A DNA stretch of 64,000 nucleotides from Stigmatella ashevillena (GTDB lineage: Bacteria; Myxococcota; Myxococcia; Myxococcales; Myxococcaceae). A program made the position numbers and the translations under genes. The stretch spans positions 2,490,007 to 2,554,006 of the forward strand of contig NZ_JAQNDM010000002.1 of NCBI RefSeq assembly GCF_028368975.1, read 5' to 3'. The stretch's first letter is position 1, and every line of letters starts with the position of its first letter. The notes under the pieces were generated by a model. It was given only the letters and a program-made list of their open reading frames with translations, had not been told where the DNA came from and did no database searches. Positions 56,681 to 64,000 of the stretch are shown in pieces.

Positions 56681-59600
56681 CTACGGCTCGGTGCCCCAAA
56701 CCAGGATGCCGCCGCGGTACACGGTCATCTTGCCCCACGTCGAGAAAGAGGTCTTGGCCGGATCGAACGAGTAATCGTTGGTCTCGTCGAAGTTGGACCA
56801 ATTGCTCTTGTTGAGCCGGATCTGGACTTCGCCGCTGTCGCGGCCCGCGGCAATCGAACCCGCCCCCGCGGTGAAGCCAAGCTCGACATAGTGCGTGGCG
56901 CCCGTCTTCGGAGCGGACAATGACACCACGGTGGAGGTGATATTCGCGCAGCCCGCGGAGGCATAGTCACACGCCATCTGGATCGACTCCCCGGAGTCCG
57001 GCGTGAAGTAGTAACGAACCTTCAGCTCGCTGAGGGCCACGCTGGCCGTTCCCCCGTTGGCAATCTTGAAGTGGGGCTTGATCTGGCTGTTGGCGGGGGA
57101 GTTGGAATCCCCATCGCGGTACTGCACCGAGAGGCTGGAGGCAGGCGCCTGCTGCGTGGCCGCGAAAGCCTCCGTGGACGCGGAGGACTCATTGCCAGAC
57201 GTATCGGTCGCCGTGACCTTGTAATAGTAAGTGGTCGAGGCATTCAGCCCGGTGCTGGCATAGGAGGCAGCCGTCACGCCGGTGGCCACACGGTTGGCGG
57301 CAGCGGGCGTGAAGCCGCTGACCGTGGAGCGATAAACGTTGTAGCCCTTCAAATCGGCCTCGGTGCCAGCCGTCCATGCCAAGTTGATCTGGCTGGAGCT
57401 GGCCGAGGTGGCCGCCAACCCGACGGGAGATGCAGGCGGTGTGCTGTCGGGCGCAGACGTGGTGGCAGAGGCCTGGGAGGACGCAGAGGACTCGTTGCCA
57501 GACGTATCAACGGCCGTGAGCTTGTAATAGTAGGCGGTTGAGGCGCTCAGTCCGGTGTCAGCATAAGCGGTTCCGGACGCGCCCGTGGCGATCCGGTTGG
57601 CCGCGGAAGGCGTGAAGCCACTGACCGTGGCGCGGTAGAGGTTGTAGCCCGCCAGGTCCGTGTCTGTGTTCGCGGTCCAGACCAGGTTGATCTGCGCCGG
57701 GCTGGACGCGGTGGCCAGCAATCCCGCGGGGCTGGCCGGGGGAGTCGTATCGCCCGGTGTGGAACCCGGCTCGATGCCGAAGATCCGGACGCCGTTGTCA
57801 TAGACCGGGAGGTAGGGCGTCTTGGCCGCGGAGGCAGTCAAGTTCTTGTAAGACGGATCATTGGCCGGATTCCAGGGAGCCCCCACCGCAGCGGCAATGC
57901 GAAACTGAACCTCCTTGCGAAACGCGGACTGCCCACCGGGGTAGATCGCCGTGCCGGTGAAGTCCGCCGTGACGTAGTAGATACTCCCAGACCACAGCTT
58001 GAGCGGCAGCACCTTGGCCCCTTGGCTGTAGTTCATGGTGACCGCCAGATCCGAGGGCGAACCTCCGGCGGCGATGACCTCCGAGAGGTCGACGAAGTAC
58101 CGGAAGGACAGCTTGTCGCCGACGCGGGCCGGCCAGGCCGAGGTGTTGTTCAGGTACGCCCGAATCTCCGTGAAGTTGGAAGCAGAGACATTGATGCCCG
58201 CCTCCACGAAGAACTGATCCGAGGTGGGGGTCTCCTTCTGCGGGAAGGTGGGGTCCGGCGTCCCTCCGTAAAGGAGGTACATCTTGGCCAGCGCGCCCGT
58301 GAAGCCTGCGTTGTAGTCCGTGGCCACCTCGTTCGTGACGTAATTGGACCGATCGTCCACGTACGCATCCGCCGTATCTGGCCCCCCCACGAGGGCGCCA
58401 TACAGGATGTGCCGACTCTCGGCCGGGCTGGAGAGGGAGTCCGCCCATGCGCCATGCGCCGTGCGATGGTGAGGGTTGCGGGGGGGATTCACACCGAAGC
58501 CCACCACGTAGCTCGACTTTCGCGGGTTCTCCCCGAGCATGTAGCGAACCTGGCGTGCGGCGAAGTCGCGATAGCGCGCAGCCCTGGCCGAATCGCTGGT
58601 GGCAATCTCGTCCGCGTAGACGAAGGCCAGAAACGAGGCGTTCGCGGCATAGCGGAGACTGCCCCACTGATCCAACCAGGCCAGACCGCCGGGGGTGTAG
58701 CGAACCCGCTCGTTGTTGTAGCCGGTGGTCCAATAATCCAGGTTCCGTTCCACGGAGGCCTTGTAGGAAGCCTTCCCCGTGAGGCGGGCAAGCAACAACT
58801 GGGCGCCAAAGTGCTTGTCATCCCAGTTGTGCGTCCACTTGTAGCTCCAGTAGGTCGATTGTCCTTCCGAGCCCCAATAGGCGGTATACCCCTCGGCCTT
58901 CGTCAGGTAGCTGCTCTCTTGCGTGGCCAGATACAGCCAGGCCCCCGCCCAGCTCAACTCGTCCCAATAACCACTCCACGAGTTGTAGAACGACTGGGCA
59001 TCCTTGATGCAATCGGAGTACTTGCCCCGATAGGTGTCTGCGAATGAGAAGAGCTGCCGGGCATGCGTCAGCAGGGTGGCCGCGTAGGCAGGGTCGGACG
59101 ACCGGAACACGAGGGAAGAGGCCGCCAAGGCAGCCGCCGTCTCACCGGCGAGATCAGAACCCGGACAGGAGGCATCGACCTTGAACGAGGGCCGGGCCAT
59201 CTGCATCACCTCGGCGGGTCCCCACCACGCGTGGTCCGCTCCCCCCGCGCCCACCTGGCCATACAGCTCGTTCGGAGCCGTATGGGCCTTGACGAAGTAG
59301 TCGGTGGCCCAGCGGAGGTTGTCCCGGATGGCATTCAGCTGCCCGCTTTGCTGATACGCCTCTTCATCTTCGTAAAGGGACCAGGCCAACAGGGTCGCGC
59401 TGGCGGCCATGGGCAGACCAAATTTGACGTGATCGCCCGCATCGTACCAACCACCGGTCAAATCCTTGCCTACGTCAGCGCCATCCTTCAGACCCGAGTC
59501 TCCCCTCCAACTCACCCGTTGGGTGCTGGGCAGGGGCCCTGAGCGCTGAGCCTCGTAGAACCAGATCGACTTCTGCAGGGCCTCTGCGTAATTGAACGTC

Positions 59601-59683
59601 TCCGCCTGCGCCACCAGCGGGCTCACGGCGGATGATACGCCCATCAGAAGTGCGGCCGGTGTCGCCAGGAAATGCTTGCGCAT
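56681..59683 (-). CDS. Secreted GH9 processive endocellulase with CBM3c, two FN3 and CBM3
   Basis: A 1000-residue cellulase. Order: signal peptide (1-28), GH9 catalytic domain (about 29-460) with the nucleophile/base motif [23 protein letters not shown] and the acid Glu in [13 protein letters not shown]; a CBM3c module (about 478-640, [20 protein letters not shown]); two fibronectin type III domains (about 655-835, each with NLVWT/NLAWT and YYYK); and a C-terminal CBM3 ([20 protein letters not shown]). GH9 fused to CBM3c is the architecture of processive endoglucanases. AAGGAG lies upstream. Partner of the adjoining GH48 gene. Confidence 0.95.
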
Positions 59684-59773
59684 CTTGGGTCAGCTCCTTT
59701 GTTGTGTCTGGACGAGGAGAGACGGAGGCGGGGAGCAGCGGTCCCCACCTCCGGGCACGGCGGAAGAAGGCTA

Positions 59774-62505: not shown

Positions 62506-63475
62506 TTCCCCTTCCGAGGTTCGTTAAAGGCAAGACATCTGAACGGCTGTCCTTGTCGCTGCTTGTTACAATGAAGTCAGAGCGCATCAGCGCGGAGGGA
62601 AGCACTCCCGGCCCAACCGCGGAGCACGTGAGCGATTCCGGTGATGAGAAGACCCGAGGAGATGAGCGCGGCGTGTCTGGCGCGTCTCAGGTCCTCTCTA
62701 AACTCTTCTGATACTCCTACGAATGCCTGGATGCAAATGAAAACAGCTTTTTCCTGCTGACGCCTGTGTATGGAAACATTTGGCGTTGAGACAGCCGTCC
62801 TCCAACGGCAGCAGCGCTTCGCGCTCCGCGGCCGTCAAACGAGTCGGTGCTGGCTTGGTGTTGTGCAGCGTGTTGTGCAGCCACCTTGGGTTCGCTCGCC
62901 CACGGCAGGCGCAGCCAAGCCGACACACGGCCTGGGGCGCTCTGTCTCATCGCGCGGGCTTCTGTCCGGCTGCGATTGGCTGCTTCAAGCATTCTCAATA
63001 CAAACACGCCAAGAGCCACCCGCCCGGGCGTCCGTGACACTCCTGCAAGCGATTGGCAGGACCCACTCCTGGGGATGCGTACCGCCCTCCCCCCGGGCCC
63101 ATCGTGCGGCGCTCGGCGCTTGGCGCTCGGCTACAGGGCGCCAGACATGTAGGTGAAGTGAAGCCCCAGAGAGCACCGGATGGGCAACAGGCACACCTCC
63201 CCGTCCACCCCGCGCTCAGTTCCGGCCACCGAAACCTTGAGCGCTCGCATCACCACCCTCTCCTTTGGTATAGGACTTCGAGTCGTAACGTTTCGGCACT
63301 TTCTTCGTCCCATAGATGCCGTCAGCAGTCAATGCCAAATGACAACGTTACGATTTTCGGCAAAACCCTGTGACGCGGCGCGACAGGAATAGCGGCGCCA
63401 GCAACGCATTGCGGCAGACGACAGGCTTTGTCGCAGTGCACCAAAAACCATTGTAAGAAATCACCGGAGATGACG
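62506..63475. other. 970-bp control region between divergent GH48 and GH1 genes
   Basis: No gene can be supported here. Short open frames on both strands lack ribosome binding sites and family likeness. The half nearest GH1 (from about 63240) is AT-richer than its surroundings and holds a repeated element at 63284 and 63344. Promoters for both directions must lie here, but none matches sigma-54 or a convincing sigma-70 consensus. Confidence 0.55.
63284..63352. promoter_or_regulatory. Repeated candidate operator upstream of GH1
   Basis: CGTAACGTT (63284-63292) and its inverse AACGTTACG (63344-63352) lie exactly 60 bases apart. Both are followed on the plus strand by a near-identical TTTCGGCA. 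Two related sites in an AT-rich, otherwise gene-free stretch suggest binding of a local regulator, possibly one controlling the cellulase genes. Confidence 0.5.
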
Positions 63476-64000
63476 ATGCGTTTCCCAAAAGACTTTCTGT
63501 GGGGAGTCTCGACTTCCAGCTACCAGATCGAAGGGGGAGCCCCAGGCGATGGGCGTGGGCGGAGTATCTGGGACACCTATTGCGCGACGCCGGGCAGGGT
63601 CGCCCAAGGGGATACCGGCGAGGTGGCCTGCGACCACTACCACCGCTATCCCGAGGACCTCGACCTGCTGCGGAACCTGGGAGCCACCGTCTACCGCTTC
63701 TCCATCATGTGGCCCCGGGTGATTCCCGATGGCATCGGGAGGCTCAACCCCCAGGGACTCGATTTTTACGATCGCATCGTCGACGGGCTGCTCGAGCGCG
63801 GCCTCCGCGCCTGGCCATGCCTCTACCACTGGGACCTGCCGCAGGCGTTGCAGGACCGCGGAGGCTGGGCCAATCGCGACATCGCGAGCTGGTTCGCGGA
63901 GTACACGGCCCTCATCGCCAAGCGGCTCGGCGACCGCGTTGACAACTGGGTCACCTTCAATGAGCCGAGCGTGTCGGCCTGGGTCGGATACGAGGAAGGG
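63476..64000 (+). CDS. GH1 beta-glucosidase (3' partial)
   Basis: Hydrolyses cellobiose and other beta-glucosides in the cytoplasm (no signal peptide). The visible 175 residues carry the GH1 N-terminal signature [41 protein letters not shown] and the acid/base motif WVTFNEPSV. The nucleophile motif (ENG) lies beyond the window. The start at ATG 63476 is preferred over ATG 63470 because GGAG sits 6 bases before it but abuts the earlier one. It completes the cellulose-to-glucose route with the divergent GH48/GH9 pair. Confidence 0.95.

Follow-up and report, generated by a model that had tools for sequence, protein, structure and literature searches.

How does a myxobacterium come to carry genes for using cellulose, what switches them on, and how old is their association? 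These questions are raised by the last part of a 64,000-nucleotide stretch of the Stigmatella ashevillena genome (assembly GCF_028368975.1, contig NZ_JAQNDM010000002.1; G000:C2:2490007-2554006 of a 10.95 Mb genome, hereafter the window), where genes for GH48 and GH9 cellulases diverge from a GH1 β-glucosidase gene, with a gene for a LacI-type regulator following GH1. From the sequence evidence we consider it likely that this is a free cellulose-use locus, with secreted Cel48 and Cel9, an intracellular GH1 and a LacI switch acting on two operators, that it belongs to a wider regulon, and that it is ancestral and has been lost repeatedly. As free cellulase systems go, the enzymes are ordinary; what is new here is the conserved operator set, a second element before GH48, and a graded loss among relatives.

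The GH48 gene (59809..62505, reverse strand) encodes an exo-type cellulase (Cel48) of 898 residues, whose full-length catalytic domain (residues 48-677; PF02011 positions 1-618 of 619, 1055 bits, E=0) is followed by a linker module of ~105 residues, Calx-beta-like by eye alone and lacking a Pfam match, and by a CBM_2 domain (residues 794-893, E=7.9e-17). Its best solved relatives in a search of the Protein Data Bank (PDB) are the GH48 cellulases 4l0g (1.9e-258) and 4jjj (2.7e-253), which we take to be the C. bescii GH48 and Thermobifida fusca Cel48A; by homology, the protein would act as a cellobiohydrolase on cellulose. The CbhB model NF041611, with its curated cut-off of 1950 bits, scored 1056 bits on the GH48 protein and 121 bits on the GH9 protein, so that neither qualifies. 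A GTG at 62505 is listed as the start codon of GH48, with an ATG at 62502 as alternative; the eight GH48 leaders compared all keep GTGATG with a purine-rich stretch ahead of it, which does not decide between the two, and our preference is for the ATG.

Co-oriented with GH48 and 125 base pairs (bp) downstream of it, the GH9 gene (56681..59683, reverse strand) encodes a 1000-residue cellulase of the E4/Cel9A type, built of a GH9 domain (residues 32-465), a CBM3c (~474-639), two fn3 domains and a C-terminal CBM3 (849-1000). Pfam detects GH9 (1.7e-162), two CBM_3 stretches and fn3, whilst the PDB search places 1js4 (T. fusca E4) over residues 29-639 (5.1e-242), 2xfg_B over the CBM3c directly behind GH9 (474-639) and CBM3 structures over the C-terminal module, with the endoglucanase 8u49 as the other best solved relative. 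Processive endo-action of this Cel9 is suggested by homology. Both proteins bear signal peptides, as judged by eye, and the two genes likely form an operon read as one transcript.

The third gene, on the forward strand, diverges from this pair across a gap of ~970 bp. It encodes the GH1 β-glucosidase, matched by Pfam across the whole protein (4.6e-151), and starts at a TTG (63428) or an ATG (63470); its first 573 bases (63428..64000) lie in the window and it ends at 64807 beyond it (L002 10428-11807). The initial annotation had named GH9-CBM3c, GH48-CBM2 and GH1 as a non-cellulosomal system, and Pfam and solved-structure matches bear out these identities. Its placing of GH1 in the cell interior agrees with a protein that has no obvious signal peptide, again by eye. 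As far as tested, the system is indeed free: no dockerin or cohesin occurs among the Pfam matches of the GH9, GH48, GH1 and GH5 proteins, the genome as a whole not having been searched for either.

Just beyond the window, and hence beyond that annotation, a LacI-type regulator gene (64779-65939) follows GH1. The protein belongs to the LacI/GalR family, having both a helix-turn-helix and a periplasmic-binding-like domain (PF00356, 4.1e-9; PF00532, 2.3e-17; PF13377, 6.9e-17), and it matches structure 5ysz (E=7.5e-23), presumably CelR. Two palindromes centred on AACGTT lie upstream of GH1 in all eight GH48 loci that we found, and also in G078, a relative without GH48. In the window, candidate operator 1, GTCGTAACGTTTCGGC (63282..63297, unstranded; consensus ATCGTAACGTTWCGAT), has four mismatches to the 16-mer used for scanning, and candidate operator 2, ATGACAACGTTACGAT (63339..63354, unstranded), lies 57 bp from it; this spacing is shared by G078, the other seven GH48 loci having 99-101 bp. 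Such conserved palindromes in fitting places would be predicted operators for a cellulase regulator of the CelR/CebR/GlyR kind.

A different element, of the GGAAAAGCNGTTTTCNTTTGC type with an inverted repeat GAAAA/TTTTC, stands ~230 bp before GH48 (62733..62753, reverse strand). At up to three mismatches it is found upstream of GH48 in 8/8 GH48 loci and, in the fetched loci scanned, nowhere else, with single four-mismatch matches in L142, L157 and L013; it was not found at up to four mismatches in the loci of three relatives without GH48. We considered it as a second site of the LacI regulator and dropped the idea, as it is unlike the AACGTT palindrome and seen only before GH48; only the GH1-proximal pair looks like LacI operators. 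The initial annotation had arranged the genes around one control region: the divergence of GH48-GH9 from GH1 stands, but since the gap holds two kinds of element, the control region is two, not one. In relatives with a transporter between GH48 and GH1, the operator pair is flanked by GH1 and the solute-binding protein gene, with the GH48 element 4.3-4.6 kilobases (kb) away. No sigma-70-type promoter was found in the window's GH48-GH1 gap.

Put together, Cel48 as exo- and Cel9 as processive endo-cellulase would be secreted and cut cellulose jointly, and the cellobiose released would be taken up and split in the cytoplasm by GH1. The LacI-type protein may sit on the two palindromes before GH1 until released by a sugar such as cellobiose, and could act on other plant-cell-wall genes through the same operator type. 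GH48-GH9 have a conserved element of their own, and LacI may or may not act at their promoter too. Secretion, activity, uptake, ligand and binding are all things that we infer here.

Does the regulator reach beyond its own locus? It probably runs a wider plant-cell-wall regulon, because the same operator type precedes other plant-cell-wall genes in this genome and in related ones. Whole genomes were scanned with the 16-mer ATCGTAACGTTACGAT at up to three mismatches, the reversed pattern serving as control, in 16 chosen genomes: the eight with GH48, the other five of the window's genus and three of genus g3 without GH48 (G076, a GH48-negative genome of genus g7, was left out). In the eight GH48-positive genomes there were 47 sites (12 at the locus, the other 35 outside it), where the reversed pattern gave 12; in the eight GH48-negative genomes there were 11, two of them at the G078 locus, and the reversed pattern likewise gave 11. 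The window's own genome has three sites, namely at the GH1 locus, at C2:1965835 between divergent GH5-fn3-CBM2 and GH10-CBM genes, where the 16-mer is identical to operator 2, and at a kinase gene (C2:2430559).

Across the GH48-positive genomes, 19 of the 35 outside sites are followed, at no more than 500 bp, by a gene encoding a plant-polysaccharide enzyme or CBM-bearing protein: GH5-CBM2 (nine sites in seven genomes, with GH10 sharing one and GH26 another), PL1 with a ricin-type lectin (three), a CBM4_9 protein whose GH16 match is sub-threshold (three, all within the final codons of the frame upstream), a BNR/CBM_X2/CBM3 protein with a GH74-like reading (three, one shared with PL3) and GH6-CBM4 (one). 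At up to two mismatches, 7/9 outside sites precede such genes, and the nine outside sites identical to operator 2 all precede GH5-CBM2. Counted as homologous regions, 5/18 have a plant-wall or CBM gene (P ~0.008 at an assumed rate of 7.3%, twice the median share of carbohydrate-active enzymes, 3.66%, given in the accessible part of PMC12093494). Six of the nine sites outside the G078 locus in GH48-negative genomes were examined; a CBM56 protein is encoded behind one and GH18 behind another, two in G077 stand before unrelated genes, and the remaining two, in G044, fall within unscanned reading frames.

Several other proteins encoded behind operator-like sites deserve mention in their own right. 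The BNR-repeat proteins with CBM_X2 and CBM3 in L126 (G082) and L143 (G048) are, by reading, likely GH74 xyloglucanases, and in L126 the site region is shared with a major facilitator superfamily transporter, a candidate uptake route. Also in G082, three proteins of 849-938 residues (L127 3099-5915 and 5990-8644, L130 3103-5652) have no Pfam or NCBIfam match at 0.001, and a DUF6055 protein of the Svx/AvrXca family (L128 3015-5021) lies directly behind a one-mismatch site.

How widely is the locus itself shared? GH48 is rare in myxobacteria, as the initial annotation had supposed: we found it in 8/195 Myxococcota genomes (8/145 within the order) and 3/90 genera, namely in G000 and G082 of the window's genus (two of seven genomes examined), G045, G047 and G048 of g3, and G073-G075 of g7. 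Among the 195, no genome outside the family Archangiaceae yielded a GH48. According to a 2025 survey of 61 myxobacteria (PMC12093494), a few Archangiaceae have GH48, as do the Polyangiaceae Minicystis rosea and Polyangium fumosum; perhaps the latter two species lie outside our genome sample.

All eight carriers keep the arrangement of GH48-GH9 diverging from GH1-LacI, and several add to it. A sugar ATP-binding cassette (ABC) transporter (solute-binding protein, two permease genes and a MalK-type ATPase) lies between GH48 and GH1 in G045, G047, G048 and G082; Pfam checks covered three of its proteins in G048 (the solute-binding protein, the ATPase and one permease), and the rest are assigned by sequence likeness. 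An AA10 lytic polysaccharide monooxygenase (LPMO) gene directly follows GH9 in all six loci of g3 and g7, as AA10-fn3-CBM2 in the two scanned, and a LamB porin gene occurs at the G082 locus and, by likeness, at that of G047. Two g3 loci have a second AA10 gene right after LacI (G045:C1:781203, G048:C1:7622892). The window locus has no ABC transporter, LPMO or LamB porin, and three AA10 genes lie elsewhere in its genome. Both ends of its GH48-GH1 gap align to the two flanks of the transporter in relatives, and protein-level searches there with three queries (solute-binding protein, ATPase and one permease) found no remnant of the transporter, which is therefore cleanly absent, by loss here or insertion elsewhere.

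Relatives without GH48 record what may be successive stages of decay. In an rpoB tree, from which G081 is absent for want of an rpoB match, the window's genome pairs with G078 (100/99), joined by G077 and G079 (100/100). G078 has the same neighbourhood (M19 peptidase, DJ-1, AraC and, at the other side, a DinB-like gene), with GH1 90% and LacI 92% identical and both operators in place, but no GH48; GH9 survives as a fossil, a 141-codon frame (L138 8871-9296) in which residues 301-331 run into CBM3 residues 890-1000. By eye, the junction shows a short match around Tyr/Phe-Thr-Pro codons. G077 and G079 also share the neighbourhood, with a LacI 80% identical over the aligned part; tblastn (1e-5) found no GH9, GH48 or GH1 match there and the scan no operator site at up to three mismatches, leaving the LacI orthologues (G077:C7, L189 11264-12472; G079:C2, L188 11070-12278) intact as orphans. 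A LacI orthologue of at least 76% identity exists in just 11/142 genomes, the eight GH48 carriers together with G077, G078 and G079; all others reach at most 33%. The 20 kb fetched for G082, g3 and g7 contain none of the window flank genes tested (M19, DJ-1, AraC and five downstream). The locus thus has another genomic place in these genomes, which implies at least one move or more than one entry.

On the whole, we favour a locus that was present in an ancestor common to several Archangiaceae and was then trimmed or lost repeatedly. A more ambitious version, which we put forward tentatively and at a little under even chances, is that some Archangiaceae inherited one LacI-controlled plant-cell-wall regulon, covering cellulose, xylan, mannan and pectin and marked by a recognisable operator, whose core locus was dismantled stepwise in the window's genus: complete, then fossil with GH1-LacI, then LacI alone, then, as in G080, nothing. 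If so, the change from plant-matter feeder to predator would be readable gene by gene.

Where, then, did the enzymes come from? The initial annotation had proposed either real growth on cellulose or transfer from a cellulolytic lineage, with a phylogeny as one check. Our GH48 tree holds 38 sequences chosen from 90 (eight myxobacterial, 14/14 from Pseudomonadota, 12 of 64 actinobacterial, one acidobacterial and three plasmid-borne; L014, on the same contig as G082, was omitted), drawn on a locus scan limited to the best 80 of 585 loci, in which other phyla are under-sampled. Among those best 80, the window's GH48 shares 67.8-72.1% identity with the 14 Pseudomonadota sequences, 65.9-69.7% with the 64 from Actinomycetota and 68.1% with the acidobacterial one, and the nearest sequences outside the myxobacteria come from beta-proteobacteria (at most 72.1%) and Streptosporangiaceae (at most 69.7%). 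The best tree joins myxobacteria with beta-proteobacteria (73/71); placing them with actinobacteria costs 3.65 log units and is not rejected in the approximately unbiased (AU) test (p-AU 0.33). GH9 was compared by identity, since its tree contained one row twice and an extremely long branch to the outgroup, and is closer to Streptosporangiaceae (at most 68.0%) than to beta-proteobacteria (at most 65.5%). A Burkholderiales donor is thus weakly favoured by the GH48 tree, whereas GH9 identity leans actinobacterial; it is plausible that the enzymes arose in other cellulolytic bacteria or have a common origin with theirs, and an older transfer into an Archangiaceae ancestor is possible. Among 398 genomes from the phylum of Uliginosibacterium, GH48 occurs in the seed genome only.

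A recent acquisition by this species alone, from Burkholderiales or Actinomycetota, is another matter. It would account for the patchy presence (8/195 genomes, 2/7 in the genus) and the different genomic place in G082, g3 and g7, and beta-proteobacteria do have GH48 up to 72.1% identical, with GH9-CBM3c in the fetched flanks of 7/14 loci. However, the eight myxobacterial GH48 form one clade (100/100), the other seven being 83.6-88.3% identical to the window's, and the locus trees broadly track rpoB: the combined GH48/GH9 tree separates G000 and G082 from g3 and g7 (86/89), a history that the GH1/LacI tree does not contradict, with the exception of G047, which groups with g7 in both (90/92 and 95/95), unlike in rpoB. 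The GH9 fossil and the orphan LacI genes mark losses, and the fetched beta-proteobacterial flanks hold no GH1-LacI orthologue, the sole LacI-family match being 26% identical (L015). We reject a recent and private transfer as largely refuted by the one-clade tree, the fossil and the orphans, and judge it very improbable.

Our account of an inherited, LacI-controlled locus has evidence against it. No plant-wall or CBM gene follows 16 of the 35 outside sites, or 5/7 of those in G082 (sites inside long reading frames were mostly scored as misses without a Pfam scan), and three of the 19 supporting sites sit in the last codons of an upstream frame. GH48-GH9 have no AACGTT operator at their own start, the operators being ~4.5 kb away in transporter-bearing relatives. 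A purely local repressor would not predict two relatives that keep an intact LacI without the cluster. Finally, the relatives' solute-binding protein has no match in the window's genome (in a search run without a positive control) and the locus has no LPMO, so the uptake step is unexplained. Could the AACGTT sites belong instead to another regulator, such as a LacI/GalR paralogue, with the linked LacI controlling something else? Paralogues exist in these genomes, and the two relatives retain LacI where cluster and operators are gone. Yet, summed over genomes, the sites exceed the control in the GH48-positive set (47 vs 12; 35 vs 12 once those at the locus are set aside) but only equal it in the GH48-negative set (11 vs 11), LacI directly follows GH1 in 8/8 loci and in G078, and operators of the LacI family are typically palindromes centred on CG; we regard this alternative as unlikely. 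Nor do we expect the enzymes to serve predation, on the cellulose of oomycetes, algae or bacterial biofilms, in place of growth on plant matter, although there is something to be said for it: the host group is predatory, and an operator-like site at the start of a GH18 frame in G074, with a homologous region in G075, would fit fungal prey. The other operator sites precede GH10, GH26, PL1, PL3, GH6 and GH5-CBM2, which is a plant-cell-wall set, and this makes a predatory role doubtful in our eyes.

Elsewhere in the window, a GH5 gene (45602..47677, forward strand; Pfam E=1.7e-31) had been mentioned in the initial annotation as lying nearby. It lies ~9 kb off, its protein has no further Pfam family at E≤0.01, and the genome-wide scan placed no operator-like site at up to three mismatches near it; with no evidence of a link, we do not count it in the cluster. 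A small, by eye lipoprotein-like protein (51568-52065, reverse strand) matches PF06351 (2.4e-12) and PF03018 (5e-7), allene oxide cyclase/dirigent-like barrels, and is 90% identical in G078. At 54490-56258, two divergent DJ-1/PfpI paralogues have overlapping starts, one with a fused AraC helix-turn-helix (FtrA/GbdR-like), and recur at this position across four genomes of the genus.

The proposed regulon gives Archangiaceae a concrete, testable plant-wall programme, and close relatives with an intact, broken or missing locus offer a basis to test both cellulose living and the order of loss. How does it compare with known systems? Structural parallels are T. fusca Cel9A (E4), matched by the GH9-CBM3c block through 1js4, and Cel48A, through 4jjj. 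The T. fusca cellulase system is controlled by the LacI-family CelR at a CelR box, TGGGAGCGCTCCCA, and appears to differ from the window locus in C-terminal module order, gene arrangement and operator. Seven beta-proteobacterial loci (Rhizobacter, Roseateles and a Burkholderiaceae metagenome-assembled genome; L010-L012, L015, L016, L019, L023) have, as here, GH48-linker-CBM2 beside GH9-CBM3c, their GH48 domains being 69.9-72.1% identical to the window's, but they have CBM2 in place of CBM3 behind GH9 and a variable gene order, and their fetched flanks yielded no orthologue of the window's GH1 or LacI.

LacI-type control of cellulolytic genes by sugars is described for GlyR1-3 of Clostridium thermocellum, GlyR2 acting on mannanases and cellulosomal enzymes (PMC8457756, as far as its text was available); the organism differs and its enzymes are cellulosomal, and the likeness lies in the type of control. 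We found no publication on myxobacterial cellulose use under a LacI regulon, and PMC12093494 alone on GH48 in Archangium, in a search that left most subscription literature outside; the accessible text of the latter surveys GH48 of Archangiaceae without giving locus structure, regulator, operators or loss series, and the words Hyalangium and operon are absent from its main text. A described counterpart is the cel9-cel48 cluster of Myxobacter sp. AL-1, in which a GH9-CBM3c endocellulase and a GH48 exocellulase are likewise encoded side by side (PMC2635677). Both proteins were detected by antibodies in the culture supernatant and acted synergistically (1.68-fold on acid-swollen cellulose), Cel48 alone being inactive on Avicel (PMC2635677). 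That account, on whose description our comparison rests, mentions no GH1 or LacI in the part available. There cel9 precedes cel48, whereas here GH48-CBM2 comes first; and where the AL-1 Cel48 is without the CBM and fn3 of its Paenibacillus relative, the GH48 protein of S. ashevillena carries a CBM2 and its GH9 partner two fn3 domains and a second CBM3.

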